Assembly: GCF_000787575.1 (NCBI RefSeq)
Contig: NW_012236528.1
Span: 435,552-499,551 of the forward strand
Source of the DNA: Acytostelium subglobosum LB1
Taxonomy: Eukaryota; Evosea; Eumycetozoa; Acytosteliales; Acytosteliaceae
Direction: 5' to 3'
DNA length: 64,000 nucleotides
Below the pieces are notes generated by a model. The model worked only from the letters and a program-made list of their open reading frames with translations. It made no database searches and was not told the origin of the DNA. This document shows, piece by piece, positions 1 to 35,509 of the stretch (positions are counted from its first letter, which is position 1; each line of letters begins with the position of its first letter). Made by a program: the position numbers and the translations under genes.

Positions 1-3000
1 CAAGTTTGTGGTGGCTTCCAATGCACCGAAATGGTTGAAGCATGATGAGTTGGCCGCCACCCTTAGGAAGGCCAATTACAAGGTCCTGTTCATCACAATA
101 CGATCAAAGTTTGCCTATGTAGAGTTGGACAAGGAATCACACGCCAAGCTATTGGCACAGAAGACGCTGACTATTCAGCAAGGCAAGATAGTATGTATCA
201 CATATTATTGACCGATCGATCAAATGATTTATTGGTTGATGTTCATTGAGTGCCTAACACAAACCATCAATCAATCAAACAACAGGTTGAGTTTACAGAC
301 TACACTAAGGAGATACCATATTATTATGTGTATCTCTATCCTGACCCTAGCAGACATCACAACTGGGTCGTGCTCAATCTCTTGAGGAAGGTTTCTCCAA
401 TGATTGGAGTGCTCCAGGGTGCCCCGCATGATCATTTGCAGGTGCCCGTGCCCACGGATGATGAGAGGAAGCTGCTTCTCGACCGCAAGTTGATGACTGC
501 TAAGGACAAGACCTTTGTGGAGGACAAGTCCAAGAATCATCGTGGCAAGATCATCTCTAGCTTTTGGCTATTCGATGCCGCGCAGCCCAGGAAGATGGAG
601 CACCGTGTCACTCATATCTCCGACACGACCAACATGTACTTGGAGAAGGTGAACGTTCTACACTTCATCATCAAGGAGCATAGTGTCATGGCTGTGTTGG
701 TGAAGGATGGCGCGTCCACCTCGGTCAAGTTGAGCAGTCCCCTCAAGAGTCTGGAGCCAGCCAACACATACCTGAACAACAAGATCAAAGAAGTGAAGGA
801 GACGACTCTCCACTTGTCCTTCGAATCGTTGCTCATCAGAGGAATGGTGCATCACTTCTTAACTGCGTCCCTAAAGAGCAAGCCAAACATAGTCTATTCG
901 ATCAAGGAGTCGAGCAATAAGGACAAGCATATGATACAGCCGGTTCTATGTGGCCCTGATTCCGAAGTCAAAGAGGTCTTGGCCGCTCTCCATGATATTG
1001 AACATCGAGTGCGCCCGCTGCCCCAGGTCTCCTTAATACCCGATGCGGTCGAGAATGAGTTTTCTATCAAGGCCGCCATCGAAGGCTCCAACATCATATT
1101 CTGTGGCCCCAAAGCAAAGGTCAAGAACTTTGAGAACCACTTAGAGTCTAGCGGTGACAAGCGTATGGAGATACCCATGTCCAAGGGCGTGCAGTTCTTC
1201 TTTAAGAAGTTTGTCAAGCAGGACATTGAACACCGTATCAAGATCACCGAGTCCAAGAACGGTTTGTTCTTGGTGGGCGACGACAAGGATTTACAGGAGG
1301 CCAAGCGCATGCTAGACCATCTTACCAAGTCGGTGGAGATGATCAGCTTCACCAAGACATTCTCGGAGGTCGTGAAGATGGAGCTGACCAACTGGTATCA
1401 GGCCTACTTCAAGGACGAGCCAATCTTTTGCCACTTCATGAGGTCCAAGTCCAACCCCACCAAGCGCCAGACCAAGTCATCGTGGAGTGGAAGCGAGGAC
1501 GAGGAGTCGAGCGTGGATGAAAGCGAGTTAGACTCATCATCTGATGATGAGTTCATACCAGCATTTGATGAGAAGCTCGTCATACTAGACTTGGAGTTCT
1601 ACATTCATCGTGAGCGCAGCTATCAAGCACTCAAGGACAAGGTGGAGAAGTTGGAGAGACAAAAGGAAGGCAGGGCAGTGGAAATCAAGGACCTGTCACA
1701 AGACGAGATACGCTACATCATGACCAGCTTTGAGAAGCAACGCGCTCGTCTGTTTAAGACCAAGAACTCCATCTATGTTCAAGGACTGTGGGAGCAGGAC
1801 GTCAAGAAGCTGCTCAGCGACATCCAAATCAAGAGGGAGTCGTTCGTCACGATGGACCAGACGGCGACTCTCCAGGAGTGGCAGCACATGTACCTGGCAG
1901 TCGAAGCGAGGAAGGATGAGATGCAGACTAGGTTCGGCGTCAAGCTAAGCTCGGATAACCTCAAACCATGCTTCATCATCAAGGGCAAGCCAAAGGATGT
2001 GATGACGGCCAAGAAGCATATCAACGAGCTTATCAAGGATCTCAAGGGCCAGGAATTCGAGTTGCCCTTGCGCATGGCCAAGAACCTTGATGAGACCATC
2101 GAGCTGAGGAGGAAGCTGACTGAAGCCTTTGAGGTTATGATGTATCACGTGCCCAATCAGTCACGAATCAATGTGATAGGTTCGTCGAAGCTCAACTGGA
2201 ACGACGTGGCCAACTTTATCAACAAGCTCAAACATGTTGAAGCCTTGTGGCCACCAGAAGACAAACCCGCTCTCAAGGAAGACTTCAAGCCGCATTCAAG
2301 CTTCGTGGTGGACATGAACCTGCTCTCATTCAAACATGATAGCAACAGCTCCCGTTTCCGACTGACTGCCAAGACACAGGAGGACATTGACGGCGCAATC
2401 AAAGCACTGGATGAGCTTGTCAAGGATGCTGAGATGACATCAATCAAGATCGAGCTCAAGCCTGAGTTCATCTCAATCCTTGTCAAGTACGATCCAGATG
2501 GAGAGCTGAAAGAACTGTTTGGCAAACATCAAGACGTCAAGTTTGAGAAGTATGAGTCAGCGCTCTACGTCCAACTCATGGGCAAGAAGAAGGCGGTCGA
2601 TGCCGCCCACAAGGATACAGTGGCGTGGGTCAAGGCCAAGACTTCCGCGTTGGCAACTCGCCAACACCCACTACCAAGGGTCATTGCCAATGAGGTGCTC
2701 AAGTCTGGCTTCGTCAAGTCATTCTTTGGTGCCAACAAGGTGCTACTGCAGCCTGACGTCCGCACCAACAAGACCATGCTCTCGGTTACTTACGGAGGCG
2801 TGACCATCGAGGTCAACAAGGGCGACATACTCTTGGAGCACTCTGAAGCCATCGTCAACGCTGCCAACAATGAGCTTCAACATCACGGTGGCATTGCGAG
2901 GCATATTGCCGACGCCGCTGGCTTGGACTTTGAAGTTAAATGTCGCGATCTAGTCCACAGCAAGGGCAAGGTCAAGACTGGCAGCGCTATGTCCACCCCC

Positions 3001-4923
3001 TCCGGCAAGCTGTACTTCAAGGCCATTATCCATGCAGTGGCTCCCATTTGGAGCTCATCTAACCAGGCTCACTGCAAGCTTCTTCTTAGGTCTGCTGTGA
3101 TAGCGTCACTCTGGGAGGCAGTCGACATTGGGTGCACGAGTGTCTCGTTGCCAGCCATTGGTTCCGGAATCTTTGGCATACCCTATGAGGTATGTGCCAC
3201 CATCACCATTCAGGCCATCTATGACTTTATCGACAAGAACAACAAGACACCCTTGAAGTCAATCAAAGTATGTGACAACAATGATGACAAGGTTCTGCTC
3301 TTCAGCAATGAGCTTCAGTCCAAGTCGTCCCCACTTGGTCGGTCTCTATTCACTGGTCCACAGTCCACTGCGACCACTCTGCTGCGCGAGTTGGCCAACA
3401 ACAACTTCGACGACAGCAATGAGCCTTTCAAAGTGGCATACCAGTGGAAGTGGCAAGAGAATGATGGATCGTACGTCAAGTTTGATGTGGACCAGAACTA
3501 TCAGATTGAGTACGCCTACTTGAAGGGTGACAAGAAGCTGGAGGTGCAGGGCGACTTGGAGATGCAGAAGAATGGCCAACGCTATGAGATCGACTTGGTC
3601 AACAAGACCGAGCTCAACACCCACTTTAAGAAGAATGCTCGTTCAATCATTCGAGAGAGGATGCTGTTGGAGTCTGCTGCAGGCGCCAAGCAGTCGACGT
3701 GGTACTACCGCGACGAACGATCAGGTCGTACAGTCTCCATCCCCGACCCCACCAACCAGATAGACCTTGCACAGCAGCGACAGCAACATCTCAAGATCGG
3801 CAACTACAAGGTGATGTTCCCAACCTCCACTGTGGAGGTCTACACCGGTGTGCTCAGGACTGGTACATACCCTTTGATCAACAGCTATCAAGAGCAGTTT
3901 GATCGACATCTCGAGTCTGTGAACAAGCCCAAGCACTCGGACATCTCGGCTGACGACCTCGAGCAGGACCAGCCAGAGGAGGAGAGTCAGAAGGTCAACA
4001 TCAGAATCACCGCACTCACCCAGGAGAGGCTACAAACAGCCATCATCACACTTGAGAAGACCATCAAGGACACCCTGTACGAGGACCGACTGGTCCAGAT
4101 CACGGTCGAGGAGTACAAGAAACGTGACCTCAAGACTGTGTTGGACAAGGTGGCCAAGCAGCATGGCTGTGAGATCAAGGCTACAAAGGATGCGATCAGA
4201 TTGATCGGACCAAAGGAGAGCGCATCTGCCGCCGAGATCAAGATGATGAGACTGCTCCTCATCTCGTCCAAAGACACCATCAGCTATCCTTGGGAGAAGT
4301 ACCTTCAACAGGAGCAAACGGCCAACTGTGTGATAACACAACTCGATCCACAGTCGGCCGAGTACCAAGCCATCTTGCAGAGGGTGCACCAGTCCATACC
4401 AACGATCGTCATGGTCAAGATTGAGAGGATACAGAACAAACATTTGTGGGAAAGGTACGCCACACGCAAGCAGCAGATCCTCAAGAAGATGAACGTCAAT
4501 GTCAACAACAGCAACAACTCATCGACCGATCTGGCATCAACGGAGATGATGCTGTTCCACGGTACCAGAGCCAACAGCCCAACTTTGATTTACAATGACG
4601 AGGATGGCTTCGATACCAGGTTCAGCAACCAAGGCATGTGGGGTGTGGCCACCTACTTTGCCGACAAGGCGTCATACTCCCTCACCTACAGCTCAGTATT
4701 GCCAAGTCGACATCGCCAGATGTTCTATGCCCGCACGATGCTTGGTGACTGCACACACATCATGCCCAATCGTGCATTCACGAAGCCGCCACAAAAGCCA
4801 GACAACCAAAAAGGCTACACTGAGTACTATGACAGCATCAGTGGCGAGACCGGAGGTAGCAAAGTGTACATGGTCTACGAGAACAACAGGGCGTATCCAG
4901 AGTATCTCCTCACCTACAACTAA
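1..4923 (+). CDS. PARP14-like macro/WWE/PARP mono-ADP-ribosyltransferase (5' end outside window)
   Basis: A large ADP-ribosyltransferase-like protein whose start lies left of the window. The first exon fragment runs to 190 and an intron spans 191-285 (GTATGT...ACAG). Joining ATA to GTT at 286 keeps the frame, giving about 1,545 residues after the intron. Seen in order: an RRM-like start; a long region of KH-like repeats; an acidic Ser/Asp/Glu stretch near 1480-1560; a macro domain (about 2800-3290, with VNKGDI and IVNAANN); a WWE domain (about 3430-3650, YQWKWQENDGSYV); a second WWE-like domain (about 3690-3880); and a C-terminal PARP fold (about 4280-4920). The PARP triad reads H (codon 4558, LFHGT), Y (codon 4687) and V (codon 4864, KVYMVY) in place of the Glu of poly-ADP-ribosylating PARPs. 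This order matches vertebrate PARP14, where the same site is not Glu and activity is mono-ADP-ribosylation. Mono-transfer or an inactive enzyme is inferred. Confidence 0.88.
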
Positions 4924-5041
4924 ATAAATGTTTACATTTAGCTTGGGTAACGTTTTGATCGACTGATCAAACTTGTTGCCTCATTTGGTATTCATCAACT
5001 CAAACATTGTTGCTTTCATTCAATCAATCAAACATAAAACG

Positions 5042-8000
5042 ATGTCAAGAGATAATAATAGATGTATAAATAAAGTGTTCCACAATAGACTGTTGTGCCG
5101 AGTGATCTTTGGACATGTGAGTGAGATGCACAGTCGGTGGTCCACGTTGCCGCCACCATCCAACACGATGGCACGAGAGGATCATGATCCAAGATTGATG
5201 ATAAAGTCAACGATCAAAGGTGCCAAACTCCATTCCAGTGGTGACCTCAACTTGATGTTGCGGTACAACGCCACTCAAATGTTCATTCAATCATTCAACA
5301 ACATTATCGAAGTATCTGACATACACTTTACCATCAACTCCGAGTTGTTGTGGAAGGCAATGCAATACAACAACACAACCGCGTTCAAACACTTATGCTT
5401 CAATACTACGCGCATGGTACTTGACCAACCCCCAATTGACTTTGACCTGTCATCAGCCTTAATCAAACATGGAAACATCGAAATCTTCAATTTGTACATG
5501 ATGGCAACGAACATTGGACAGAGACCTGATCAACATACCCATGCTCATGGACACTGGCAACGAAGAGTTTGTGCGTCTGGTACTCAGACATGTACCTGAA
5601 TCATACAAAAAATTTTAGGAGGGCAGTTGTAAATGTTGTTATATCACCATCCCAACTGGGTCAGCAGTCGTGGCTTCAGTATCGGCATTCTCAGATTGAT
5701 ACACCAGTATGCTGAGTGGTATGAAAATCGCACTTTTTGGGAGACTGCATTGCTTCACTCAATCAGTTGTGGACAGTGTTCATTACCTCATTGACAGCCT
5801 ATACGAGATGGATAGAAACTGGTGCCTAAACTGCTCTGTATTGCTCATCAAGTGTATGAAGCGGTGCGCCAAAGCAGGCAACATCATAATGTTCCAACGG
5901 CTCATCAATATATTCGTTGGTTTTGAGGAATGTCTCGGCAAGGCAGACCTGAGTGAGTTGGTCAAGGTAGCATGCGATCACAGACAGATGGACTCCCTAC
6001 AATACCTCATCAACAATCATTACCCTCAAAACATCTCGATACGCTCCCCAATCTCCAAGATATTCCGACCATTGTTGATCAAGGATTCATCGTCATCAGA
6101 GCCAACATTTTTGGCAATTGAAGAACTGGATGTAGCCAAGATACCGATGTCATTGTTGGCAGGCATTCGAAGTGATGACTTGGAGATCGTGAGGTCATTC
6201 ATTCTATCAGGTGATGATGAGGGCCCTATAGGTGTGGATGTCTTCGAGTTGGACGCCAAACTCTGTCGCAGGATGTCCGCATCGATGGCTGCACTCATCG
6301 TGAGTCCTCGAATCTATCGATTCAAGTTTGGCATCCAATCATTGGTCAGCATGGTGGAGGTCGCCAGCAAGGGCAAGCATGCCAGCAACATCACAGTGGA
6401 CATCGTCTGCAGCTTCATACTTAACTGTGACTTTGATCCCCACACAGATGTGATCAAGAGTGCATTGGTCCTTGCAGCAGGCTTCTCTGTCCAAGTGTTG
6501 GAACTCATACACAAACGATTCAACATCAACATTACCCAAAAATCAGATATACTTCGCAATGCCATCCAGATGCAATGTTGTGAGACCATGTCATATCTAT
6601 TCAAACATCTCGATCAAAAAGCCATTTCCAATATCATCTTCTTTAATCACGTCGATATATTCCAACATGGAACATTGGAGTGCGTCACTCTACTAATGGA
6701 TCAATATGCCGACTTCAAAGAGTCCCTCTTAGCAATAAGTAGTTCGTTACAGAATGACAACATTGAGGTGTTGGAGTATGTCATCAATCAGACCTCACTC
6801 AAAGCCAAGGACAAACAAGTCGAGGGCTATAGCCTGAACGACATCATTCAATCAGCACCTTACAACTACAGACCAAAAGTTATTCAGTTGCTTGAGCAGC
6901 GATTTGGACCGGTGACCAAATCATCCTTGGAAATACCATCTACTACGACCCTAAACCAATGGCATAGAAGTGGCAATGCCCATCATATCATAGGGTGCCT
7001 TTTCAACAACTCATTCACAAAAGAGTCAAGGACTGATATCTTACGGTTTCTGTACACTACCTTAAAACAATGGACTCACTACACTCATGTGGTCATGTTG
7101 TGCACTGATCATATCAAGGCAATCACATCATTGGATAGTGTTGGCACATTGTATGTCATGTTCTCTAATGTCTTCTCATTCCATCATTCAAACAAACACT
7201 AACTCCAACTCATTCCCTCACTAATAGACAACATGATGTGGAGGTCACACCACCAACTCATCTGGCATCATCAAGGCTTCAGACAGCACTCCATTCTGTG
7301 TTCAAGGATCACAAGCTTGGGGTGCTCATCATGTCGCATGTTGGACATGTTCACAGATCACTTAGCATCCCACTTGACAACGTGATCAAAGGTTCAAAGT
7401 TGTTGGACAATCATTCATTGAGTGATTACCTCAGATATGGTGCAACGGAATGGTTCCTCCAATCATACTCAAACTCAATATTCATGTCCAAGACACATCA
7501 TCAATTTGTAGTCAACTCATCACTTCTTGGACAGGCATTTCTTAAGTATGACTCTAAGGTAATTGATGCACTCCTGACCAACCCCCAAATTGATGATGAA
7601 GGCGGGGAGAGACAACACATTGAGTTTGTGACCAACTTGTCTTCATGCACATCCAGATTGGGAGCAATTGTTTGATCAATATCTGTTGATCAATGGTCGA
7701 GAGATAGTTCTCGAGAGCACTGACAACCATCATGCACATGTCCAACACCCATCATTCATTCGCAAGCTCGTCATGTGCGGTTGCATAATCCATTTCAATA
7801 CGTTGGGCTTTAATGATTCTCTTCCCTGGATCAACAAACCTTATGCAATGGAGATGATCCATACCCTGATGGACCTACACGCACTCAATATACACACCCA
7901 TAGAACTATCATTTTGGAAGTGTTTAAACACAATGTCATGACGATCGTGCGATATTATATCGATACATGTCCGTCAAAGCTGGATGGCTACGTGGCGATC

Positions 8001-9453
8001 AGCCACCATGAAGGACGAGCTTTACATGATTTACTAGTCGAGTCATGTAGTAGATATGGACGAGTCGAGTGTCTGGCAGCCATACTTTCAATCATCCTGG
8101 CACAATCATTCAAGTGGACTGCACACATGTATGAGCCTACCTTCTTTATGCTTAATGTCAACCTACACAATGGTTTCAAAGTCGCTGTGGAGACTGGCCA
8201 TTTGGAGATCGTCGAGGTGCTTCACTCGCTCATTATGTCCAATGGACTCTATTGCTTTGGAGTCATATATTCATCTTGACTGATGCCATCAAGAATGGTC
8301 ACGTGGACATGGTGGACTACCTCTTCAACCTCATCTCTTCATCGTCATCAGATGAAGCTGAACATCAATCCCAGGTCTTTATAGAGCATGAACCTAATGT
8401 TCATTCTAACTTCATGTCTGTGCAGTTTGTTGAACGATTGATGACAGTTACACCTCGACTATTCGAAAAGTACTATGAACATCTCCTATGTTGTTCCATC
8501 AAAGTTGGAAATAGAGATGTAATCGATATGTTGGACATGTGCACCAACAACAACATCATCATCAAGGACATTGATTATAATCATGTTGTTAGAGAAGCTT
8601 TGGAAGTATGGATCTTGAGTCATTCAAGAGATTCATGGTCAAGGATAACGTGGACATTCGAACTAAAATGGGACACCACCTGAGCAAGATGATTGGACAT
8701 TCCAAGTTCCCAGACGATCACAAGATGTATGAGCAGATGATCATCGAACTTGTCAACTTTGAAGGCGGAACCTCAGCTCTCCATCTACGACGATCTTTTT
8801 GAGTTGTTGGAAACAGCGTCAACCAGGTCACTTCCAGTCCTCAAACTCGTGATCAATCATTTCACAACAAATAACATGGATATGGACCCGATACCGACAC
8901 CAACAGTATCAATGTGTTTCTTTATTTGACTTCTCAACATTACAAAATAATGATTGGACACTGCATTGGACGAGATGTCATTGAATCATTGGACTTTTTG
9001 ATCCAGTGGGCCATGAAAGTGTCTGGGAAGATAAACACACATAAGCTCATCGACATCATTGACTTGAATGATTGCAACACACCATCAACACTCGCTCACA
9101 TCATGGACAAAGGATACCTCAGCAACAATAATGGTGATGATGACAAACCATACATTCTGTCAGAGTTGGTCAATCGTGCTTGTAGAAGTGGCCGCATTGA
9201 CTTGATGCAAGTTGTCCATCAGCGATGTACCACTCCCTCTCAGTTCCAAAGGCATCTTCCAACAGTGGACAGCATGATTGCGGCCTCCAAAAGGAACAAT
9301 CATCAGATGCTCAGCTATCTGTTTGAAGGTGACGATGCACCAATCAATCGGGCAAACCTCCAACTCAACATGGCCACATTGATTAACACAATCCGCCATC
9401 ACTCAATTGACAATGGACATCTCAACATCATCAATATGTGTGATTGTCTTTGA
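5042..9453 (+). pseudogene. Broken tandem copy of a two-module degenerate-ankyrin family protein
   Basis: This region aligns throughout with the intact neighbour at 9635-13939 but is broken. Compared with that copy the frame is lost near 5522, 5610-5660, 5765, 7640 (two-base loss), 8277 (one-base loss), 8605, 8795 and 8915, so at least eight lesions. The longest open part is 5765-7150. A GTATGT intron at 7151-7227 sits at the same place and in the same phase as the intron of the intact copy. The start (MSRDNNRC) follows AAACG at 5042. Repeating helical 'G-xx-ML/ISL-Ixx' units suggest divergent ankyrin-like repeats. About 130 bp around 5172-5304 is nearly identical to the neighbour while other parts have drifted. 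The function of the family is unknown. It is a pseudogene unless the assembly carries many indels. Confidence 0.8.
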
Positions 9454-9634
9454 ATATTCAATGATTATTCAGATATTAATAAATGTATAAAATTAATTTT
9501 GATCACTTTTTTCAAACCGTTGCCTATTTGGAAGCCATCATAGCTCAATCGAAATTATATTAAATCTTCACTCATTCATTCAATCTATCAATCCAATACA
9601 ACACAATCAAACATATATAATCACTCATTCATTA

Positions 9635-12600
9635 ATGATGACAAGAGATAATAAGCGATGTATAAATGAAGTGTTCCACAATAGGATGTTGTGCCGTGTG
9701 ATCTTTGGACATGTGAGTGAGATGCACAGCCGTTGGTCAATGTTGCCACCACCATCCAACATGGCTCGAGAGGATCGTGATCCAAGATTGATGATAAAGT
9801 CAACGATCAAAGGTGCCAAACTCCATTCCAGTGGTGACCTCAACTTGATGTTGCGATACAACGCCACTCAAATGTTCATTCAATCATTCAACAACATTAT
9901 CGAAGCATCCGCCAAAGACTATTCCATCAGCTCCGAGTTGTTGTGGAAGGCAATGCAATACAACAACACAACAGCGTTCAAATACATGTACTTCAACACG
10001 ACGTGCATGATACTTGACTCTCCTCCAGAAGACTTCCCACTGTCATCGGCCTTGTGTAAACATGGCAACATCGACATCTTCAAATGGTACATCGCGACAA
10101 CAATGAGACAAGAGTTACCCAAAGATTTGATCCACATATTCATGCTGATGGACACGGGCAACGAACAGTTTGTGCGTCTGGTACTCGAGCATGCCGAATC
10201 ATTCAGAACCAGTAATGACAAGGAACACTCCAAATACAATATGTTCAAGTTCCGCAGTCGTGGCATCAGTGTTGGCATTCTCAGAATGATGCACGAGTAT
10301 GGCCAGTGTCTGTATCGATATCGCTATATTTGGCACCGGGCATTGCTTCACTCTGTAAAGTGCAACATGATGGACAGTGTGCAGTACATCATTGACAATG
10401 TACACGATATTGAGATGAACATATTCTCGCCCGAGTATGACGTGATCTACAAGTGTTTGATGCGATGTGCTAAGGCTGGGAACATCAGCATGTTCAACCT
10501 GTTGATCAACACTCAGATTGGTGGAGAATGTCTCAGCTACACCGATGTGAATGAGTTGGTCAAGGTAGCATGCGATCACAGTCAGATGGACTTCCTGCAA
10601 CACCTCGTCGACAATCACAATGGCAATGGTAGCCCTGGCAAGATGCCCGTGTCAATACTGGCATGCATTCGTAGCGATGACTTGGAGGGTATGGAGTCAC
10701 TCATTCAACGAGGTGATGTTAATGTTAATGTCTTCGAACTGGACGCCAAACTCTGTCACAGGATGTCCGCGTCCATGGCGGTGCTCATTACGAGTCCAAG
10801 GATCACTCGATTGAAGCTTGGCATCGAGTCACTGGTCAACATGGTGGAGGTCGTAAGCAAGGGCAAGCATGCCAGCAACATCACAGTGGACGTAGTCTGC
10901 AACTTCATACTCAACTGTGACTTTGATCTAAATCACGATGAAACAACTTATATGATCAACAGTGCCATGGTCACTGCGGCTGGCTTCTCTGTCCAAGTGT
11001 TGGAACACATACACACTCGATTCGATCAAGCCTATGGTTCGGATATGCTTGGGAATGCAATCAGAATGCAATGTCGAGAGACAATATTATTACTCCTCAA
11101 TCATTTGTACGAGAATACCAACATTGATCTTGTCGTACATACAAGCGGTGTATTCCGCCTTGGAACATTGGAGTATGTCACTCTCTTATTTGGTGAAGTC
11201 ACCGATTGCCACCTCTTTGTCATACAAGATAGTTTGATGAATGAGCACATTGAGGTGTTGGAGTATGTCATCAGTCATACCCCATTGGAGGCAATCAAAA
11301 ACAAGGACGAGTTGATCGGTGACATCATTCAATCAGCACTTCGCAATGATCGACCACAAGCTATCCAGTGGCTTGAGAATAAGTTTGGATACGATGCAAT
11401 TGCCAAGGCCATGCGAGCTCCAAATCTATCGGCTCTAAACACGTGGATCCATCTTGGTAACGCACCGCACACTTTGGAGCACCTCTTTAGCTCTACGCCA
11501 TTCACAAACCTTCCCAGGATTGATCGATTGCGAGCTCTATACACGATCTTGAATCAATTTACTTGCAATACTCATGTGATCAGGTTGTGCTCTGATCAGA
11601 TCAAGGCCATCACATCACAAGTGTCACTAGAGAGTGATAACTCAATGTAAGTCATGCTCAGCTCGAGGTTTGTTTGCTCGCTCAATCAATCCATCACTAA
11701 CTACAACACTAATTCACCTACTCAATCAATCGCAGACAACCCAATGTGGAGAACACACCAACTCATGTTGCATCAACAAGGCTACAGACCGTACTCCATT
11801 CAGTGTTCAATGATCACAAGCTTGGGATGCTCATCATGTCGCATGTTGGACATGTTCACAGATCACTTGGCATTCCATTCGACAAAGTGATCAAAGGTTC
11901 AAAGTTGTTGGACAATCATTCATTGAGTGATTACCTCAGATATGGTGCCACCGAATGGTTCCTCCAATCATACTCAAACTCAATATTCATGTCCAAGACA
12001 CATCATCGACCGCGAACCAACTCATCACTTCTTGAACTGGCATTTCTCAAGTGTGACTCACGAGCGATTGATGCACTCTTGAACAACCCCTGCATGACGC
12101 TCCGTCCTAAAGAGAATGGAGGACATCTTGGGTTTTTGTACATTGTGTCAACATGCAAACATCCAGATTGGGAGAGAATATTTGATCAATACCTCACGAT
12201 CAATGATCGCAAGACTGTTCTCGAGAGCATTGGCAATCGCTATGAATATATCCAACACCCATCATTCATTCGCAAGCTTGTCAAGTATGGTTGCCTCATC
12301 AATATCCCATCATTTAACATAAGAGAATCAACAGAGTGGCTCACCAAACCATATGCCATGGAGATGCTAGAGACTCTGTTTTACCAAGCGGTACTCGGCA
12401 CAGACTACCAACAACATCTCATTCTAGAAGCGATCAAACACAATATCATTACGGTTGTGGAATATTATATCGACAACCGTCCTTTATTGCTGAGTGGCAA
12501 TCATGAAATGAAGCGACAAGCGATACACGATTTACTCGTAGAATATTGTTGTAGATATGGACGAGTCGAGTGTCTGGCAGCCATACTACCAATCATCCCA

Positions 12601-13939
12601 GGACAATCATTCCAAAAGTCCGAGAATGACAATAAGCCTAAAGTCAACCTACACAATGGCTTCATGGTGGCAGCGGGGAAAGGCCACGTGGAGATCGCCG
12701 AGGTGATCCACTCGCTCATATTGTCAAATGGGCTCTATGACATTGTAGTCATATATTCATCATTGACTGAGGCCTTCAAGAATGGTCACTTGGACATGAT
12801 CAACTACCTCTTCAAACTCATCTCATCATCGTCATTTGCTGATCAAGTTGATTCTGACAGGCTACCCTTCATCCATGATATTCATGCCAATATTATGTCT
12901 GTGGAGTTTGTTGAGCGATTGATGACCGTCACACCTACATTCTTTGTGAAGAACAATTATATGCTATTGGAAATTGCAATCGAAGTTGGAAACAGAGAGG
13001 TGATCGATATTATGGACAAACACAACATCGACATGGACGAAGTACTTTGTATCCGTATTGTTCAATTGGCTATGGATGTGTGTGACCTGGAATCGATCAG
13101 TAGGTTCATGGTCAAGGTCAAGGACAAGANGGCTAAAGTTCAAGGATGAGGGCAATCTACATAGAATTGGATATACCCTGAGCACAATGATTGGACATTC
13201 CAAATTCCTTGATGATCCCAAGAAGTGTGAGGAGGTGATCATAGATATTGTCAACAATTTGGAATACGGACTCTCAACTCTTAAGAAGAACTTACTATAT
13301 ATGCTGGAAACTGCCGCCGCCAGGTCACTCTCAGTCATCAAGTTTGTGATCAATCATTTCACCACATATTACACCAACAGCAGTACAAGTGCGATACATC
13401 AAATGACATCATATCAATTCATGATAATGATTGAACAGATCATCAAACGAGACGACATTGAATCATTAGACTTTGTGGTCGAGTTGGCCATCAGTGTGTC
13501 TGGGATAATGCACATACATAAGCTCAAAGACATCATTGACCTGAATGAATGCAACACACCATCGACACTCGCTCACATCATGGACAAAGGATTCCTCATT
13601 GTCGACGATAATGATCTGCAATCACACTGCCAGCAGTTAGAGTTGTTGTTGAGTCGTGCTTGTATCAACAATAACATTGACTTGATGCAAGTTGTCCATC
13701 AGCGATGTACCACACCCACCCAGCTCCAAAGACATCTTCCATCTTTGGACAGCCTGATTGAGGCCTCCAAAAAGAACAATCATCAGATGCTCAGCTATCT
13801 GTTTGAAGGTGACGATTCACCATTCAATCGAGCCAACCCTCCAATCAACATGGCCAGTTTGATCAACACAATCCGCCATCACTCAATTGACAATGGACAT
13901 CTCAACATCATCAATATGTGTGACCGCCTTTTGAATTGA
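9635..13939 (+). CDS. Two-module degenerate-ankyrin dictyostelid family protein, apparently intact
   Basis: Exon 1 is 9635-11646 and the intron 11647-11735 (GTAAGT...CGCAG), phase 2. Exon 2 runs to 13939. A single ambiguous base at 13130 shifts the frame; ignoring it gives 4,215 coding nucleotides, 1,404 residues. The two exons encode homologous halves. Exon 1 opens with VFHNRMLCRVIFGHV, then IKGAKL and LRYNATQMFIQSF. Exon 2 opens with VFNDHKLGMLIMSHV, then IKGSKL and LRYGATEWFLQSY. Each half continues into helical repeats of the 'GHLDMINYLF' type that resemble worn ankyrin repeats. No catalytic motif, signal peptide or membrane segment is visible. Dictyostelids carry large families of such proteins with an F-box-like N-terminus; that link is from memory and uncertain. 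ATG at 9635 or 9638 fits the position of the start in the broken copy. Confidence 0.75.
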
Positions 13940-14033
13940 ATAAAGATTGAATGGAGTTTGAACTTATTTTACCTCTTGGACCATCAAACTGGACTTCACA
14001 TATTTACGAAGTTCGTATTCGATTAATCAATGC

Positions 14034-14037
14034 AAAA
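14034..14037 (-). terminator. Likely Pol III terminator (TTTT) of tRNA-Asp
   Basis: Read on the minus strand, a run of four T lies a few bases past the 3' end of the tRNA gene, where a Pol III stop is expected. A four-T run is the minimum seen in eukaryotes, so the call rests on position. Confidence 0.55.
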
Positions 14038-14041
14038 TATC

Positions 14042-14113
14042 CTCCCCTTCCGGGAATTGAACCCGGGCCTTTCGCGTGACAGGCGAAAATCCTCACCACT
14101 AGACCAAAGGGGA
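14042..14113 (-). tRNA. tRNA-Asp (GTC)
   Basis: On the minus strand the sequence folds into a complete cloverleaf without intron. The acceptor stem is TCCCCTT with AAGGGGA, followed by discriminator G. The D arm contains TAGTGGTGAGGA, the anticodon arm is TTCGC-CTGTCAC-GCGAA with anticodon GTC, and the T arm is CCGGG-TTCAATT-CCCGG. CCA is not encoded, as expected in a eukaryote. The first nine bases are also part of the target-site duplication of the neighbouring LINE, which restored the 5' end of the gene after insertion. Confidence 0.96.
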
Positions 14114-14119
14114 TTTGAG
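14105..14119. repeat. Target-site duplication, left copy (15 bp)
   Basis: CAAAGGGGATTTGAG occurs here and again at 15444-15458, directly after the poly(A) tract of the LINE. The bases outside the two copies differ. On the tRNA strand the repeat covers nucleotides 1-9 of tRNA-Asp plus six upstream bases. Confidence 0.9.
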
Positions 14120-15443
14120 CAATCACTGACATCTATGAACAACGAACACTGGCCATCATTTACAAACTGATCAACTCAAACATCACACTGGTTCAACAAT
14201 CATTCTTCTCACTCTGGAGAAAACTTCAAATCATTCACAACCCATCAATCGAGCAACCAATCCATCAAGAGAACACATTATTCATCAATCGCAAGAACAT
14301 ACATGGCACTTCTCTTAAGGGCGCACTAGAGATATGCGACAAATATCAACTCAAGTTATCAACCAACAGTACTCAAATCAGTCTAAACAACAGACTACTC
14401 GACCTAGATCTATACTATGCAGGCAAACATCGCATACCTTACACAGATACATCTATCTCCTCACTGATGCTCAATGGAAGACTTCGATCATTCAACACAA
14501 TCAACAATGATAGACAACTCAATCATATCTCACAACAAAGATACAACACAATTAGAAAGAAACTATTCTCTAACGATGACAACATCTTACAAACCATCAG
14601 AGATCTCATTAACAAGTATCCTAAATGGACAACACCAGTCACTCAACAATTGAACATACCAAATAACACCAACTCATTGGAGGTATACACTGATGGATCA
14701 CACTTTAGCACCTTACCTCCTGGACCACCTGTACAGCAGCAACAACAACAGACACACACCCTCAACAACATATATGAACGAGCAACAACTCTCAATCAGC
14801 CATACAGTATACATAAGGCTGGTTATGGCATCTACATCCCATCCCTTAACATCAGAGAATCAAGACGAACAGCTGGATGTCAAACTATCAACAACGCCGA
14901 ACTTCAAGCCATCAACACCATACTCAAAGAGACACCAAGATCACTAAATCTCACTATCAACACAGACAGCCAAACATCTATCGATGTGTATCGCAACATT
15001 GAGAAATCACCATACACGTTAAAATACATCAAACATGGATACTTTGACACAGTCAACTCACTCCGTCAACTCATTCAAGAGCGCAAAGAACACAATGCAG
15101 CAACAGAACTAATCAAAGTGCAAGCACACTCTGGCATTACTGGCAACGACATGGCAGACGATCTGGCAAAGGCAGGAGCATCTATCAACATAGAGGCTAC
15201 AACACCACCATCACTACCACTACAATTCATTCATCGAGACAACATCATCCCATCAATCGGCAAACACATTGCCAATGAACAATCAGAGACACTGTTCAAC
15301 CAATGGAGATCACTCAANTATNNNNNNNNNNNNNNNNNNNNNNNNNNNNNNNNNNNNNNNNNNNNNNNNNNNNNNNNNNNNNNNNNNNNNNNNNNNNNNN
15401 NNNNNNNNNNNNNNNNNNNNNAAAAAAAAAAAAAAAAAAAAAA
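14120..15443 (+). mobile_element. 5'-truncated LINE (non-LTR retrotransposon) with RNase H domain, inserted at tRNA-Asp
   Basis: The element starts right after the left duplication, already inside an open frame that begins at 14119 and runs to the scaffold gap at 15322-15421. Past the gap are 22 A residues and the right duplication. The frame encodes a type I RNase H domain at about 14680-15190: EVYTDGSH, NNAELQAI, NTDSQTSID and AHSGITGNDMADDLA supply the expected D, E, D, D residues. No reverse transcriptase or endonuclease part is present, so the copy is 5'-truncated as in abortive target-primed reverse transcription. A poly(A) end with a 15-bp duplication fits a LINE and not an LTR element. 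Dictyostelid LINEs are known to seek tRNA genes. The length of the part hidden in the gap is unknown. Confidence 0.85.
15322..15421. other. Scaffold gap (100 N) inside the LINE
   Basis: Exactly 100 N, the usual placeholder for a gap of unknown size, preceded by a single N at 15318. The frame of the LINE enters it and a poly(A) tract leaves it. Confidence 0.95.
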
Positions 15444-15458
15444 CAAAGGGGATTTGAG
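15444..15458. repeat. Target-site duplication, right copy (15 bp)
   Basis: CAAAGGGGATTTGAG follows the poly(A) end of the LINE. Sequence to its right should be the original upstream flank of the tRNA gene. Confidence 0.9.
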
Positions 15459-15563
15459 GTCCAAAAACAAAAATTACTCGTTTTATCGGGTAAAATTTTG
15501 GGGGTTTTTAATTTTTATTTTATTGTATTCATTCACGTATATTTATATAAACTACTACTTATT

Positions 15564-19282: not shown

Positions 19283-20389
19283 GTATGTGTAAGGTAATGA
19301 TAATGATAAAAGGAAGGACTAGTTCCCAAAGGCAAAGGTATGAGTTGGATTGATTGATTGATTGATGAGATGCGATGCGATGAGGTGCGATGCGAATACG
19401 ATTCGATGATTATTAGATGATCTGATCGAGGTTGTTGCTGCAGTTGTTTGTTAGTTTGTTCGAAGGATAAGTCAGTCTTGCTTTGTTGTTAGGTGTTGAC
19501 AACACAACCCCCTTCCTTTTCATGATGGTTACGCGCTCTTTTACAAAGGCGATCTCACGATCGATGTCCAAGACCCTGCAAAGGGGTGTCTTTTTGCACT
19601 CCTTTTCAAAAACAGAGCTGATGACGATGTTTAATTTGGGCAAGAGGGGGAAACGAAAGGTGAGTGATCACTATTATAACAAGAATGACTTGTCATAATA
19701 TAATTGGTTTAGTTTATCTTTAAGTTTGATTGGGGGAGAATGAGGAGTACCTTGGAATCTCGGAAGTAGTGCGATACCGAGCAAATACATGAAAGGAACG
19801 GTAAGGACTTGCCGTTACCATGTTGTTCCAATCCCTCTGAATAAATTAGTTTAATCAATAATGTCTTGAACGTGTCAAGACAGAAAGAGATTAAGCTTTC
19901 TAGAACAGATACTACACATGATCAAAGCAAAATGCTTTGAGAAGTGATTTGCTAGGTTGCGCAACAGTGACTTTTATCAATTACCTCTCATTCATAAATT
20001 ATGGTGAACTTACACTATTGTTGAAGTTTCAACACTCTAGAACTTTCAATCAATGGTCTCAAGAATGCTTGGATATTGGTTGGTTCATTGTTATCTAGAT
20101 ATCACTTCATTATACATATTATGTATATGAGATAGTAGTTGTTATATTATCTGTATCTGTACATGTATTGAATCCAAAGTAATAAAGGAATGAATACTTT
20201 TCAAAAGGGGTACCCTTTGTTTGACACTTGCTCATGCAAAGTTGTTCAAAGTCAACTTCAAACACACACTCATTCATTCTCTCATTCATTCACACTCATT
20301 CATACTCATTCATTCAAATACAGGTACTTGTATTACTTGTCAACAGGTAGATAGTTGTACTAGTATAGTATAGTATTGTGAAGTACTAA
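19283..20389. other. Intergenic between divergent mhkA and the ankyrin-TBC gene
   Basis: The 1.1 kb holds no convincing gene. It contains GATT-type tetranucleotides near 19350 and CATTCATT tetranucleotides near 20270, a short open stretch at 19483-19660 ending in a possible GTGAGT donor, and the hairpin-rich block at 19742-20034 listed separately. It probably includes both promoters. Confidence 0.6.
19742..20034. ncRNA. Candidate structured RNA (hairpin-rich block, strand undecided)
   Basis: Inverted repeats lie closely packed. An outer stem TTGGAA (19752) pairs with TTCCAA (19826) and encloses two hairpins: CTCGG/CCGAG (19759/19777) and AACGGTAA/TTGCCGTT (19797/19809, one G-T pair, loop GGAC), a three-way junction. 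Then come GTCTTGA/TCAAGAC (19863/19875), AGAAAG/CTTTCT (19882/19896), TCAAAGCA/TGCTTTGA (19922/19933), GTTGCGCAAC (19956) and TGTTGAA/TTCAACA (20019/20028). No long reading frame covers the block. It does not match the snRNA, 5S, SRP, RNase P or U3 sequences I can recall. It may be a novel ncRNA, an rRNA-like remnant or a leader of the next gene. Confidence 0.35.
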
Positions 20390-25602: not shown

Positions 25603-28600
25603 ATGTATAAACTATTTACAAGTAGGACACTCTTGGTCATGGTGATGGTGATCATGACATCATCGATGATAGAAATTGGAGTTGGCGAGGTAGTGGTAAC
25701 CAAAGACAACCCTGACAATGGTCACACCTATGTGCTATACAATGCCAACGAGTCATGGCATACTGCCTACAACGATGCAATATTACAAGGATAGTATGTA
25801 TCTCTCTCACTTCTTCAATCGTAATTGGAATGATTCACTAACCATCATAAATATAGTTATCTCACTACTATTACAACATTCAGTGAGTATAACTTCATTA
25901 TTACGGAGTTATTCAACTTGCAACCAGGATACTATGCATGGATTGGTGGTAACACAACATCCATAAGTGGTCAGGATGTAAGGACAGTGTATCAATGGGC
26001 CAATGGACCAGAGTTTGGTATACCCATCTACGACTTTGACAAGTCACGTTGTCTTGGATTCTGTAACTTTAACATTGATCAGCCTGATCACAACAAACAA
26101 AACAATCTCTATTTCTGGAACAACCTGGCATGGGATGATCACGCCGATGGTGCATCAGTGAATGGATACATAATGGAGAAGGGTGGTGAAGATGATCCTG
26201 TAATTTATCCATTCGATATGCAACCAAGTGTTCTGACCATTGGCAATCTGGACAAAACGCTATGGAACACATCCAATGTCAGTGTAACCTTTACCAACAG
26301 TTTGGCCGAGCGTCCCTCCTTTGACTGTCCTATTCTCTCCTGGTCTCCATCACAAATTACTTGCCAAACTCAATTCACCGTCGGGGAGTATGACATCACA
26401 GTCACAGATGGCACTCAATCATTCATCCATAAGAAGTTTCATCCAAATTGTAAGACATCCTCGATCAACAACCAATCCATCATTTAACTAACAATGACAT
26501 CAAAAATATAGTACCATTTATAACAACTATTTATCCTGGATTCGATGTCAACTCTACGATGACAATCAATGGACAGAACTTTGGTGATAACATTACACTT
26601 ATAGAGGCTGTCATAGTTTCTGAGTTCAACATTGAGTGTATCCCAATTCAATATCTTGTCATTGACCGATCATTCACATGTCGTATGACTGATTCCTTTG
26701 ACAAACAATCATCATACAGATATGCCCAAATCTCCATCACAGTCGGTGGAGTACCAATGAACAATATTGGTAGATTTGGAGTTTGTAAGTATCTTCTGTC
26801 CATCCAATCTAATCAATCACTAACATATCAATCTCCACCAGATGATAGCTCTACCAATGGAATGTTAGTATTCACGGGCTCAACATATCCCAACGTATTC
26901 AACTTTAGTGTTGAGGGTTATGAGACTTACCTTTATGCTCCTTTGATCAAGGAATCAATCGATCTCATTCACATCATGGTCAAGAATAGTATTTACTATC
27001 CTACAATCCAATTGAATAGTAAGTTAACTATTTATAAATAACTCCAGGTTGGTAACAACTATATTCTAACTTGAGTTCCTATCGATCCAGGTGCCTATTA
27101 TTTCCGTGATGGTCCACTCAAAGGTCAAAAAATCATCGATAGTAATGGACCCAACAATGCTATATTCAGCAACACCTCTATCATATTTGACTCCTCAGTA
27201 TCATTCTATATGTCAGATGGTAAATATAATCAATCAATCAATCAACCAACAAAATACTAACATATTATAACTTTAGAGAATATGACCATTTACCTTGATA
27301 CAAGCACTGGAACATTGAGATCTGGATATGATGTAGCTGAATATAGTGTTGGATTCATCAACTTGACAAAACCAGATCCAGTATTCCTCAACTCATCACA
27401 TACTCAATTACCAACATCAGGTGGTCAGCTTGTTCTCCAAGTGGATAACATACAACTGTTGAGTAGTAGTTATATGTTGATGAAGGAGGGCGGCATCCAG
27501 GTGGACTGCTCAATCATACCAATCATAGAGAACTCATCATTGGTGATCAATGTACACAGTGGATATGGATCATCAAAGCCACTCATTCTGGCAATCAATG
27601 GACAGACGACCACACAATCAACCACAACCAACAACGCCAACTACTTGTCATTCAAACCTCCAACCTTGAGTTCCGTCAACATCACTTCGACAACATTGTT
27701 CACTGATGGTGTCGGAATGATTACATTGTTTGGTGATCAATTCGGTCGAGTGCCAGAGATAATCAAACTCAACATTGTTAATGATCAAGGTGTCATTGTG
27801 AAGACGATATCATCACCATCACAGTTGTCATTCATCCAAGATCATCGTATTATCCAGTTGCAATATCCCTCCCAATCTGGTCACGGATCAAACAATATCT
27901 CCATAACAGTTGATGATCAGACTTCCAACATTATCAAGTTCACTCCACCACCAACCATCACAATCCAATCATCAACATCATATGAATATCAAACACCCGG
28001 TACCATCACCATCAAGGGTACACTACTATATCAGCCATTGAGGGTGGTGACCATTGGTGGTGCGTCATGTGCCAATGCCACTCTTCTGGATTCAGAGAGA
28101 ATCACATGTCAGTATGATGGATCCGCGCCGCCACAGTCCAACAGTCTGGGTTTGCCCATCACAGTCCAATGTGGTCAATCAATAACAACTGCCTACAAAT
28201 ATGTATATGTCAACAACTCACAATGTGGACCACAACCTTATTGCTCTGGCAATGGACATTGTGAAGATGGATCATGTTTCTGTTCGGATGGATTCAGTGG
28301 TAGTCTGTGCGAGCATGATAACACAGTACCAAGCAATCATACACCATCTATCAACACTGGCAATAGTACAATTGATAACTTCTCAGTCTTCTTTACACAT
28401 ATCAGAGAGATTGATGGTGCGTCTGGCAACCCAGAGATCACATACCCCGTGTCCAGTGTCATTTGGAACGTCACCCGAAACACATCATCAACCTTGGAGA
28501 CTATTGGAATGATTCCAGATGTGTCTGGATTCAAGATCAATGTCACTTCAATCATCTTTGAGGCGGACACCAACTATACATTCGCCGGCCAGGTGTTGTT

Positions 28601-29168
28601 CATGCAGAGGAACAGCTTCAAGTACCAGATTGAGATGGAGGGTTGGCCTTTCAGGAGCAAGAACAACTACCTTCAGTTGGTGTATGAGCTCCAGAATCCC
28701 AAGGACACCAAGTGCTCTCAATCTCAGAGCACATACAATGATGCCAACAATCTACTTTGGATCCAGATCAAGTTTGCAAATCAATTATTCCTGGTCAAGT
28801 TCTCGAGCAGGATGTTGGTGGACAATCGAATCACAGCCAGCCAAGCAAAGATACTTGGAAATGATGATACTATATTCCAACAACCATACTACAAGGATTT
28901 GGGTGACTCATCCAGGTTGTTGGTGGCGATGGTGATGCCATACTTTGGACAGACGACAATCGATCCAAACTTCTCTTTACTTATTGATAAGTCGGCTCAA
29001 GGTGATTCAGACTCTTGTGGATCATCATTTAAATGGTGGTGGATAGTCGTGGCGGCAGGATGCACAATAGTACTTGCGGCCATTGTTTGTGGTATCATAT
29101 ATCATAACAAGAAGAAACGCGACTTCAGGAAGAGGACAAGTATGTCACTATCTAAACTCAATAATTAA
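25603..29168 (+). CDS. Single-pass receptor: C-type lectin-like, TIG, EGF and ComC modules
   Basis: Six exons: 25603-25793, 25857-26449, 26512-26784, 26842-27018, 27091-27219 and 27277-29168, giving 1,084 residues. The hydrophobic N-terminus (LLVMVMVIMTSSMI) is a signal peptide. A C-type-lectin-like fold follows (YAWIGGNTTS, NNLAWDDHADGASVNGYIME). Several TIG/IPT-type beta domains come next, then an EGF module with CSGNGHCEDGSCFCSDGFSG and a ComC-type beta domain. A C-terminal membrane helix (WWWIVVAAGCTIVLAAIVCG) leads to a short basic tail. It should sit in the plasma membrane and bind glycans or partner cells. D. discoideum has many related TIG and ComC proteins, some acting in cell recognition and spore or stalk development. 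The exact role here is unknown. The last four introns are all phase 1. Confidence 0.85.
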
Positions 29169-29250: not shown

Positions 29251-32200
29251 TTATGTATTCGCGGGGAGATAGACAATGTCTAGGGTGGGACTCATTTATT
29301 TGAAGGCTGGGGCAGGTAAGGGCAAGGGTATGGTTAGTTAGAATGAGCTCTGAGTGATATTGAGGTGTCTTTGTGTACTTACCACAATGAGCTCCAGTTT
29401 GAGATGGTGGAAGAGTGGTGCAGTATTTTCCATTCTCATACTTGTTATCAACTCTCTTTGGTGCTGGTGTCATTCCAGACTTGCTGGCGGTCACACAATA
29501 TTCGCCTGGAAGTAGGTTATCAAACTTATAACCTCCACCTGAGTTACTATCGATAGTCTTGACGACTTCTCCGGTTGCCACGTTTGTCAACTCAAACTTG
29601 GCACCATTGACTGGCTTGTTAGTATCAAGCTTTCCATTGTTTGCACTGTCGTTCCATACGTATCCTTGGATAACGTAGGTCTTGGGCTTCATCAAACCTG
29701 TTTTAAAGAAAATTAATGAATGAGTTAGAGGGTTGTCTAGTCTTTAGTTCGCTAGCTGGACAGATTAAACTTACCCAAATGTAATGCAGTATTGGAGGGT
29801 GGGACAGTTACACAGAGGTCACCATTAGAGTCGAACTTGTTGTCTGCCTTCTTGCCCGCTGGGACCCAGGTGTTGCCTGGATATGATCCATGAAGGCAAT
29901 AATCTCCTGCGGGAATATCTGGGAAGGAATAGGATCCTTGAGTGTTTTCAAGAGTCTTGATAACTCCTCCTTTCGAGTCACGCAATTCCATCGTTGCACC
30001 ATTGACCACCTTCTTTGAGTCCAAAACTCCAGTCTGAGAACTGTCATCAAAGATGTATCCCTGCAGTTTGTACAACTCTGGTGGAGGGGTTGGTGCAGTA
30101 GTTGGTGGAGTTGTTGGTGGAGTAGTTGGTGGAGTAGTTGGTGGACTAGATGGTGGAGTAGTTGGTGGGGCCTTGGTTCCCTTGACCATTCCAAGGTGAG
30201 CTCCAGTGTTGCTGGGACCAACTGTGATGCAGAGCTTGTCATCCTCATACTTGTTATCCTTCTGCTTAACTCCTGAGGTCCATCCTTCCTTGGAAGCAAC
30301 TACACAGTAATCACCGGCATCAAGTCCCTTGAATGAGTAGGCTCCATTGGCGGGGTCAATGCTTCTGATCTCATTGCCGGCGCTGTCCTGGAGGGACATC
30401 TTGACTCCGTTGAGCTTCTTGTTGGTGTCAAGGACACCTGATTTGGCTGAGTTGTCATCCCAAATGTATCCTTGGATTACAAACGTTGGTTTCTTGATCA
30501 TACCAAAGTGGGCACCAGTCTGGCTTGGACCAACTGTCACACAGTATCTGCCCTTGTCGTTGAACTTGTTGTCGTTTCCTGGCTTTCCTGGAACGTATCC
30601 CTCTCCTGGATAATATCCGACGACACAGTAGTCACCGGCATCGAGGTTTGTAAAGGCATAACCTCCCTTGGTGTCAGTCTTGCGGCTAAGTAAGTTTCCA
30701 GTGCTGTCGTATAGCTCCATGGTGGCGCCGTTCAACTTCTTGTTGGTGTCCAGCTTGCCCTGGTTCTGGGCCGAGTCGTCCCAGATGTAGCCCTGAATCC
30801 TGAACGATGGTTTCTTGATCATTGCATAGTGAGCACCGGTCTGGCTTGGTCCAAGAGTTGTGCAGAACTTGCCCTTGTCAAACTTGTTGTCATTAGCCTT
30901 CTTGCCTGGCACGTAATCACCTGATGGGTATGATCCGTACACGCAATAGTATCCTGCTGGGAGACCCTTGAATGAGTAGCTACCCTGGGCATTGGTAGTG
31001 GTCCTAATCACAGTGCCATTCTCATCTTGAAGTTCCATAGATACACCGTTGAGTCTCTTGTTGGTGTCAAGCTTGCCCTGGTTCTGTGCAGTGTCATCCC
31101 ATATATATCCCTGGATGGTGTAGGTTGGAGCCTTGTACATTCCAAGGTGTGCTCCGGTTTGGCTTGGACCAAGGGTGAAACAATATCTTCCATCCTTGTA
31201 TCTGTTGTCATTCTGGGGTACGGTGGTGGTCCACTCGTCAGAGTTGGAGGTTGCTGAAGCATCGATGCAGTAGTCACCAGCCTTGAGTCCAGTGAAGGCA
31301 TAGCCGCCATTGGCCGAGTTGATCACTCTGAGCTCATTGCCATCGGAATCGAACAACACCAACTTGGCGCCGTTGAACTTTTTGTTGGTGTCCAGCTTGC
31401 CTTGGTGTCCTGCCGAGTCGTCCCAGATGTAACCTTGGACTCGGAAGGTGGGTTCCTTGACCATTGCATAGTGGGCACCAGTGTTGCTTGGACCAACAGT
31501 AAAGCACTGCTTGCCATTCTCATACTTGTTATCGCCAGCAAACTTGCCTGGGATGTAGTCATCCCTGAATCCAACTATACAATATCTGCCCTCGGCAAGA
31601 CCACTGAATGAGTAACTACCTTGAGCGTCGGAGATGCTCCTGATCACATTTCCATCGGTGTCCATCAATTGCATAGTGACGCCATTGAGCCTCTTTTCAG
31701 TGTCAAGCTTGCCCTGGTTCTGTGCAGTGTCGTCCCAGATGTAGCCCTGGATCCTGAATGATGGCTTCTTAACCATGGCAGCATGGAGACCGGTCTGGGA
31801 TGGACCAACAGTCTTGCAAACACGTCCATTGGAGTCGAACTTGTTGTCATTGCCCTTGGTGCTGGGGGTGTAGACATCGTTGGTGTCGTATGTTACAACA
31901 CAGTAGTCACCCTTTGGAAGTCCACGGAATGAGTAGCTGCCTTGTGCGTTCTCGATGGTTCTAATCCTTGTGCCATTGGAGTCGTACAACTCAAGATTCA
32001 TGCCATTGAGGGCCTTGTTGGTGTCCAGAGTACCTTGGTTCTGTGCAGTGTCGTCCCAGATGTAGCCCTGTAGTGTGAATGATGGCTCTTTGACCATTGC
32101 AGCATGGAGGCCGGTCTGAGATGGACCCACCGTCTTGCAGACGCGTCCATTGGAGTCGAACTTGTTGTCATTGCCCTTGGTGCTTGGTGAGTAGATGTCC

Positions 32201-35200: not shown

Positions 35201-35509
35201 TTATGGAGACACATGTAGGTTGGCCATTGATCACTTGACAAGTTGTGTACTGCTGGCATTTCTTAAAGAAACACTTGTCAAAACAAGTGGGTGGCAATCC
35301 AAGATGTTGTCCACAACAAAGTTGGGTGTCTGGACAAACACGTGGTCCACATTGTTCTAATAATATTGAAATTGAAAAAAAAACTTATGTTAATAATTAT
35401 ATTTTTAATTTATACTTTGGACAAACAAATACATACCTAACGAGGAAATCTCCAAACAAAAACAACTTAAAATAAGTAAGAGTATTACTTGTACATGAAT
35501 ACTCCCCAT
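29251..35509 (-). CDS. Colossin-like secreted protein with 15 SdrD/Cna-B repeats
   Basis: Exons on the minus strand: 35509-35437 (signal peptide MGSIHVQVILLLILSCFC), 35356-34166, 34066-33785, 33698-29775, 29697-29383 and a tiny last exon. If the last exon is 29279-29251 the protein has 1,937 residues; an acceptor that ends it at 29296 is also possible. After a cysteine-rich segment (CGPRVCPDTQLCC...CFFKKC) comes a Thr/Ser/Val mucin-like tract (about 34500-35200). Fifteen copies of a beta-sandwich repeat follow, of the form GYIWDDTAQNQGKLDTNK...GDYCVV...DNKF...C...GPSQTGLH, twelve of them in the 3.9-kb exon. A Pro/Thr linker near 30070-30165 precedes the twelfth. This layout matches D. discoideum colossins, secreted proteins with bacterial-adhesin-type repeats; ColA is far longer. 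An extracellular matrix or signalling role is inferred. Confidence 0.88.
34500..35200 (-). repeat. Thr/Ser/Val-rich mucin-like tract of the colossin gene
   Basis: Degenerate tandem units reading TTTVSTTAS, TSTITATTTVTTTG and the like on the minus strand. Similar runs in dictyostelid surface proteins are heavily O-glycosylated; that is inference here. The high repeat content explains a long antisense open stretch at 34390-35091. Confidence 0.8.

Follow-up and report, generated by a model that had tools for sequence, protein, structure and literature searches.

An RNase H-bearing LINE fragment six bases upstream of an intact tRNA-Asp gene in Acytostelium subglobosum, probably of an NLTR-A-like kind

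Introduction

What kind of mobile element settles at the very start of a tRNA gene, and how does that gene come through whole? This question is raised by a locus within a 64-kb stretch of A. subglobosum DNA (the window), in which a truncated LINE adjoins a tRNA-Asp gene. A preliminary description had seen in it a new target choice, with the element landing inside the acceptor stem and a duplication rebuilding the tRNA gene. In the literature on Acytostelium retrotransposons, nothing was found on tRNA-adjacent insertion. The element is compared here with tRNA-associated elements of other hosts, and an insertion mechanism is proposed and weighed against its alternatives.

Genomic context

Two convergent frames have their 3' ends on either side of the insertion site, one ankyrin-like (ending at 13939) and one with alpha-kinase/WD40 domains (ending at 15564). 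Among PDB entries, the latter frame best matches myosin heavy chain kinase A of D. discoideum (E 5.6e-121). Several weak ankyrin frames are found on the plus strand at 5700-13939, one of three being above the Pfam cut-off. The end of the ankyrin-like frame next to the site (13116-13939) recurs in slightly altered form at about 9030-9443. As many as 59 consecutive bp are identical between the two, pointing to tandem copying or conversion in the recent past. A single N at 13130, where this frame passes from 11713-13149 to 13004-13939, is perhaps a doubtful base and not a real frameshift.

Elsewhere in the window, a 1557-codon frame on the plus strand (250-4920) carries Macro, WWE and PARP catalytic domains in that order. 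A U2 spliceosomal RNA gene, recognised by Rfam RF00004 with 102.8 bits, is located on the minus strand at 19740-19948, some 5.6 kb away from tRNA-Asp; the match covers the full model, 1-192, and spans 209 bases. A 1329-codon frame on the minus strand (29755-33741) contains twelve SdrD_B-like stretches (Pfam E 1.8e-106); at 34110-35384 there is a weaker match below the cut-off. The SdrD_B domain is best known from bacterial surface proteins. Two further frames, at 27261-29165 (plus) and 50760-52548 (minus), combine EGF/ComC supersandwich and IPT/TIG domains and presumably resemble dictyostelid cell-surface proteins. The window has 56% A+T; for A. subglobosum 55% is tabulated, and the same table gives 66 to 78% for the three further dictyostelids that have an entry for A+T (PMC4334915).

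An intact tRNA-Asp gene with a new upstream neighbour

The tRNA-Asp(GTC) gene occupies 72 bp on the minus strand (14042-14113), with nucleotide 1 at 14113. It is called by ARAGORN and reaches 64.2 bits with the Rfam tRNA model (RF00005), against a gathering score of 29, in agreement with the intact gene of the preliminary description. Both internal promoter parts were located on the minus strand by pattern matching, the A box TGGTCTAGTGG at 14096-14106 (tRNA nucleotides 8-18) and the B box GGTTCAATTCC at 14053-14063 (nucleotides 51-61). A T4 run at 14034-14037 on the same strand, four bases beyond the tRNA 3' end, is likely the Pol III terminator. No external B box with at most two mismatches to GGTTCGANNCC was found within about 200 bp downstream. 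When folded as single-stranded RNA, the tRNA did not outperform shuffled sequences (z -1.19, with 26 of 200 shuffles equally good), and a clean cloverleaf was absent from the lowest-energy fold; the identity of the gene therefore rests on the Rfam and ARAGORN matches.

The present leader consists of CTCAAA, the six bases between the tRNA and the element. That these bases hold the transcription start site is only an idea; in plants, a CAA triplet at most 10 bases upstream has been discussed as a start-site feature (PMC11700998). Judging from the duplication described below, the former upstream flank of the gene is the stretch at 15459-15563, which now lies past the element, and in this respect the earlier reading of a displaced flank holds. 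Directly above the leader, the 50 bp of former DNA were 68% A+T and the 50 bp of element DNA now in that place are 60% A+T.

Target duplication

The element is bounded by two copies of the 15-bp sequence CAAAGGGGATTTGAG, at 14105-14119 on the left and 15444-15458 on the right. Read on the plus strand, bases 1-9 of the repeat correspond to tRNA nucleotides 9 to 1 and the last six to leader positions -1 to -6. The left copy belongs to the intact gene and its leader; in the right copy, the first nine bases are a tRNA 5' end cut off from its gene. The left copy ends at the first base of the element and the right copy adjoins a run of 22 A. The repeat is exact and identity ends immediately on both sides (C vs A on the left, C vs G on the right). 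Within the window, CAAAGGGGATTTGAG occurs twice on the plus strand and never on the minus strand. A duplication over tRNA nucleotides 1-9 and six upstream bases had been described before, and both its extent and its coordinates are correct.

As a control, 61,300 plus-strand anchors, taken from 1-13000 and 15601-63900, were compared by exact prefix match with the target 13940-15317. The longest match was 14 bases and none of the 61,300 anchors reached 15; the 15-bp repeat is therefore not a chance match. For one given site, a match of this length has P ~8e-10. A looser control with the target 13116-15321 was dropped because this target took in the ankyrin-like gene, which has a paralogous copy; there, 120 of the 61,300 anchors matched over at least 15 bases, and the 93 that reached at least 20 all fell within 9088-9424, the long matches thus reflecting the paralogous gene copy.

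Features of the retrotransposon fragment

The fragment at 14120-15443 is a 5'-truncated copy of a non-LTR retrotransposon on the plus strand. It lies 6 bp upstream of the mature tRNA, reads away from it, and has an assembly gap inside. It is A-rich (39% A and 13% G in 14120-15317). Its frame begins at 14119 and continues up to the gap, with no stop in 399 codons; it runs into the left junction without a start. The 3' end is formed by the A22 run (15422-15443, plus), the only run of A or T of at least 14 bases in the window. With this tail, the 15-bp target duplication and the 5' truncation, the fragment is of the LINE type, as had been supposed.

An RNase H domain is located at about 14680-15180 on the plus strand, its start being approximate and the part aligned by Pfam covering 14815-15180. 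The frame, one of three proteins submitted, matches RNase_H (PF00075) with E 1.4e-16. Five conserved RNase H residues are present, namely D192, E261, D283, H337 and D347 (numbered from 14119), corresponding to the conserved D-E-D-H-D set given in PMC4640811. Four of the five align to HIV-1 RNase H in two PDB matches (E 0.0042 and 0.0077), and D192 is supported by the VYTDGS motif alone. Between D192 and the Pfam-aligned part, an insert with six glutamines begins at residue 206. Pfam gave no reverse transcriptase match, either for the 400 residues of the element or for the first 177 alone, and the reverse transcriptase region seems to have been truncated away. A structure predicted for the 399 residues with no relatives used was uninformative (mean pLDDT 33.6).

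The gap at 15322-15421 consists of exactly 100 N, and one further N stands ahead of it at 15318. A run of 100 N is the customary placeholder for gaps in assemblies; the N count therefore does not give the real length. The remainder of the element's 3' part is missing here, and the gap may conceal more than just the terminal part of a single element.

Relationship to known tRNA-associated elements

The closest counterpart is NLTR-A of D. purpureum. According to Spaller et al. (2016), this element has 28 copies, and those measured (16 of 28) lie 2-6 bp upstream of tRNA genes; it carries an RNase H downstream of the reverse transcriptase, and its target specificity was termed as yet unobserved by its authors (PMC5006619). 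The habit is restated in a 2018 review (PMC5911963). The A. subglobosum fragment shares the RNase H with NLTR-A, and its distance of 6 bp falls within the 2-6 bp window; on these two grounds it is most likely NLTR-A-like. It differs in its host, and, as its reverse transcriptase and endonuclease are absent, the likeness is one of position and RNase H only. The A22 tail is perhaps no NLTR-A trait, since the legend of PMC5911963 states an oligo(A) tail solely for TRE5-A and TRE3-A. In the main text of PMC5006619, the exact wording 'target site duplication' does not occur. Since NLTR-A was published in 2016, the target choice seen here is not new; the preliminary description had drawn its comparison with TRE5 and TRE3 elements only.

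A consideration that counts against an NLTR-A-like reading comes from NLTR-B of Polysphondylium pallidum. This element also has an RNase H downstream of the reverse transcriptase, and it lies 39-64 bp upstream of tRNA genes in three of three copies (PMC5006619). P. pallidum and Acytostelium both belong to dictyostelid group 2 (PMC4334915). The element described here is thus on the same side of the tRNA as NLTR-B, bears an RNase H and lives in a group 2 host, but its distance is 6 bp and not 39-64 bp.

Other elements near tRNA genes are more distant in kind. TRE3 elements insert about 100 bp downstream of the tRNA, whereas this one is upstream. Ty3 of yeast and DGLT-A also insert near the tRNA 5' end, in most hosts some 15 bp ahead of the mature tRNA (PMC5006619), but they are LTR elements with an integrase. 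Dada DNA transposons insert into conserved tRNA sequence, some families in the A box, but have a DDE transposase, make 6-7 bp duplications and sit inside tRNA genes (PMC3706591). Utopia, a LINE that targets U2, was considered and rejected, as its oomycete RNase H lies upstream of the reverse transcriptase and has R in place of H (PMC4640811), while H337 is kept here.

Alternative explanations

Of the known dictyostelid LINEs, TRE5-A has several traits in common with the element. Like D. discoideum TRE5-A, it lies upstream of the tRNA and in the opposite orientation, which is the transcriptional orientation of TRE5 elements (PMC5911963), and its 15-bp duplication falls within the 10-16 bp of TRE5-A-bsr, a tagged D. 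discoideum element (PMC9012585). The locus might then hold a TRE5-type LINE placed by contact with TFIIIB at an unusually short distance. Most TRE5-A insertions lie 47 +/- 3 bp upstream, immediately beyond the DNA that TFIIIB covers (PMC5391098), and TRE5 distances range from 31 to 98 bp across species (PMC5006619, Table 1) and from 23 to 181 bp in an assay (PMC5391098); the element is only 6 bp away and not about 50 bp. In addition, the reverse transcriptase of TRE ORF2 is followed by a zinc-finger domain and not by an RNase H (legend of Fig. 1, PMC5006619), whereas an RNase H is found here, although the gap may cover a zinc finger. A TRE5-type origin is accordingly scarcely to be expected.

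A LINE with no preference for tRNA genes may also have landed here by chance and been kept by selection, the tRNA being whole and the site lying between two gene ends. A single copy is seen, and with the element taken out, only 285 bp (180 + 105) would separate the stop codons on its two sides, making tRNA proximity likelier once coding hits have been purged. In a model with figures from PMC4334915, in which the 57 non-LTR copies that it gives for A. subglobosum are placed at random against 167 tRNA 5' ends, the probability that one or more copies hit a tRNA start within a window of 15 bp is 0.5%, or 1.3% if 35% of the genome is assumed to be open; for a 30-bp window the values are 0.9% and 2.6%. 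These figures lean towards targeting, but are no clean test of it because the finding was picked for its tRNA. A dictyostelid LINE with an RNase H and a 2-6 bp habit is, moreover, already known (PMC5006619), and a chance landing is considered unlikely. It is more improbable still that the two sides of the gap were misjoined, the right contig coming from another tRNA-Asp locus with the same element. The 100-N placeholder does lie within a probable repeat, and nine of the fifteen bases, being tRNA sequence shared between such loci, could match for free; the six leader bases, however, would still need a chance match (about 3e-4 for unrelated leaders), and both loci would still carry an insertion at the 5' end of tRNA-Asp.

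The search for other copies bears on the question of targeting. No second copy of the element was found in the window; among the blastn matches listed, the longest besides the self match covered 35 bp (86% identity) and 55 bp (78%), the two other tblastn matches had E 0.51 and 0.84, and none of these was counted as a copy. Searches of viral contigs (25 pattern stretches) and of prokaryote genome contigs (58 stretches), in which amoeba DNA is not expected, gave no confirmed copy. With a single copy, a preference for tRNA genes cannot be shown; from this one copy, with its gap, we infer that tRNA targeting may hold for the family as a whole.

Proposed insertion mechanism

The locus is probably best explained by an RNase H-bearing, NLTR-A-like non-LTR element that was steered to Pol III genes and entered the start of tRNA-Asp through target-primed reverse transcription. 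The length of the duplication, within the 10-16 bp of tagged TRE5-A (PMC9012585), and the TRE5-like opposite orientation to the tRNA (PMC5911963) also speak for it. This reading builds on the tRNA gene, the duplication, the RNase H frame, the tail and the orientation as observed, and adds to them putative nicks, the endonuclease that would make them, the steering and the membership in a family. The hallmarks of target-primed reverse transcription are a nick, priming from the free 3' end, 5' deletions and variable target duplications (PMC5391098). Since the A tail stands at the far end, the primed strand should be the tRNA-sense strand, nicked between nucleotides 9 and 10. This first nick would lie inside the A box, and its free 3' end would serve as the primer on the poly(A) RNA of the element. 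The second cut would fall on the other strand, 15 bp off and six bases above the mature tRNA, so that the two cuts (+9/+10 and -7/-6) would straddle the tRNA 5' end. An early stop of copying would have cost the element its reverse transcriptase part, with only the downstream sequence kept. Fill-in of the 15-base stagger would then yield the duplication, giving a whole tRNA gene with a six-base leader, the element 6 bp upstream of it and, past the A tail, a stump made of the first nine tRNA bases.

The cuts so placed would flank the 5' acceptor strand, which does not agree with a landing inside the acceptor stem. The idea that the duplication rebuilt the tRNA gene stands in so far as the gene is whole; a special rescue, on the other hand, need not be invoked, as the outcome would follow from the cut geometry. 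An element that lies 2-6 bp upstream and makes a duplication of more than 6 bp should always duplicate the tRNA 5' end, and the 10-16 bp measured for tagged TRE5-A (PMC9012585) would be long enough. The 'rebuilt' tRNA may therefore be a by-product, to be expected for the whole 2-6 bp class.

A more specific and rather doubtful proposal is that the element's endonuclease recognises the A box itself and nicks the sense strand at 9/10, a second cut 11-15 bp away then giving the 2-6 bp spacing. The nick would then fall in the T8-R9-G10 stretch, which is conserved among tRNAs. The A box has a constant position, +8 in the mature tRNA (PMC5391098), and the single copy found here is compatible with such cutting.

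Significance

Two points are modestly new. A. subglobosum is a probable second host for the NLTR-A-like 2-6 bp habit, and the first nick is placed, by inference, at tRNA nucleotides 9/10 inside the A box, a detail not found in the text consulted on NLTR-A. If the A box is indeed what the endonuclease recognises, the element would be a tRNA parasite guided by DNA sequence, in contrast to TRE5-A, which makes contact with TFIIIB. Every targeted tRNA gene would then survive, the mature 5' end being covered by the duplication in all cases. Should the family hold up, the 2-6 bp habit would reach beyond D. purpureum to a distant group 2 dictyostelid. The extension of the duplication into the A box points to the probable cut sites, and thereby provides a testable rule for how an element may aim at an essential promoter without breaking the gene.
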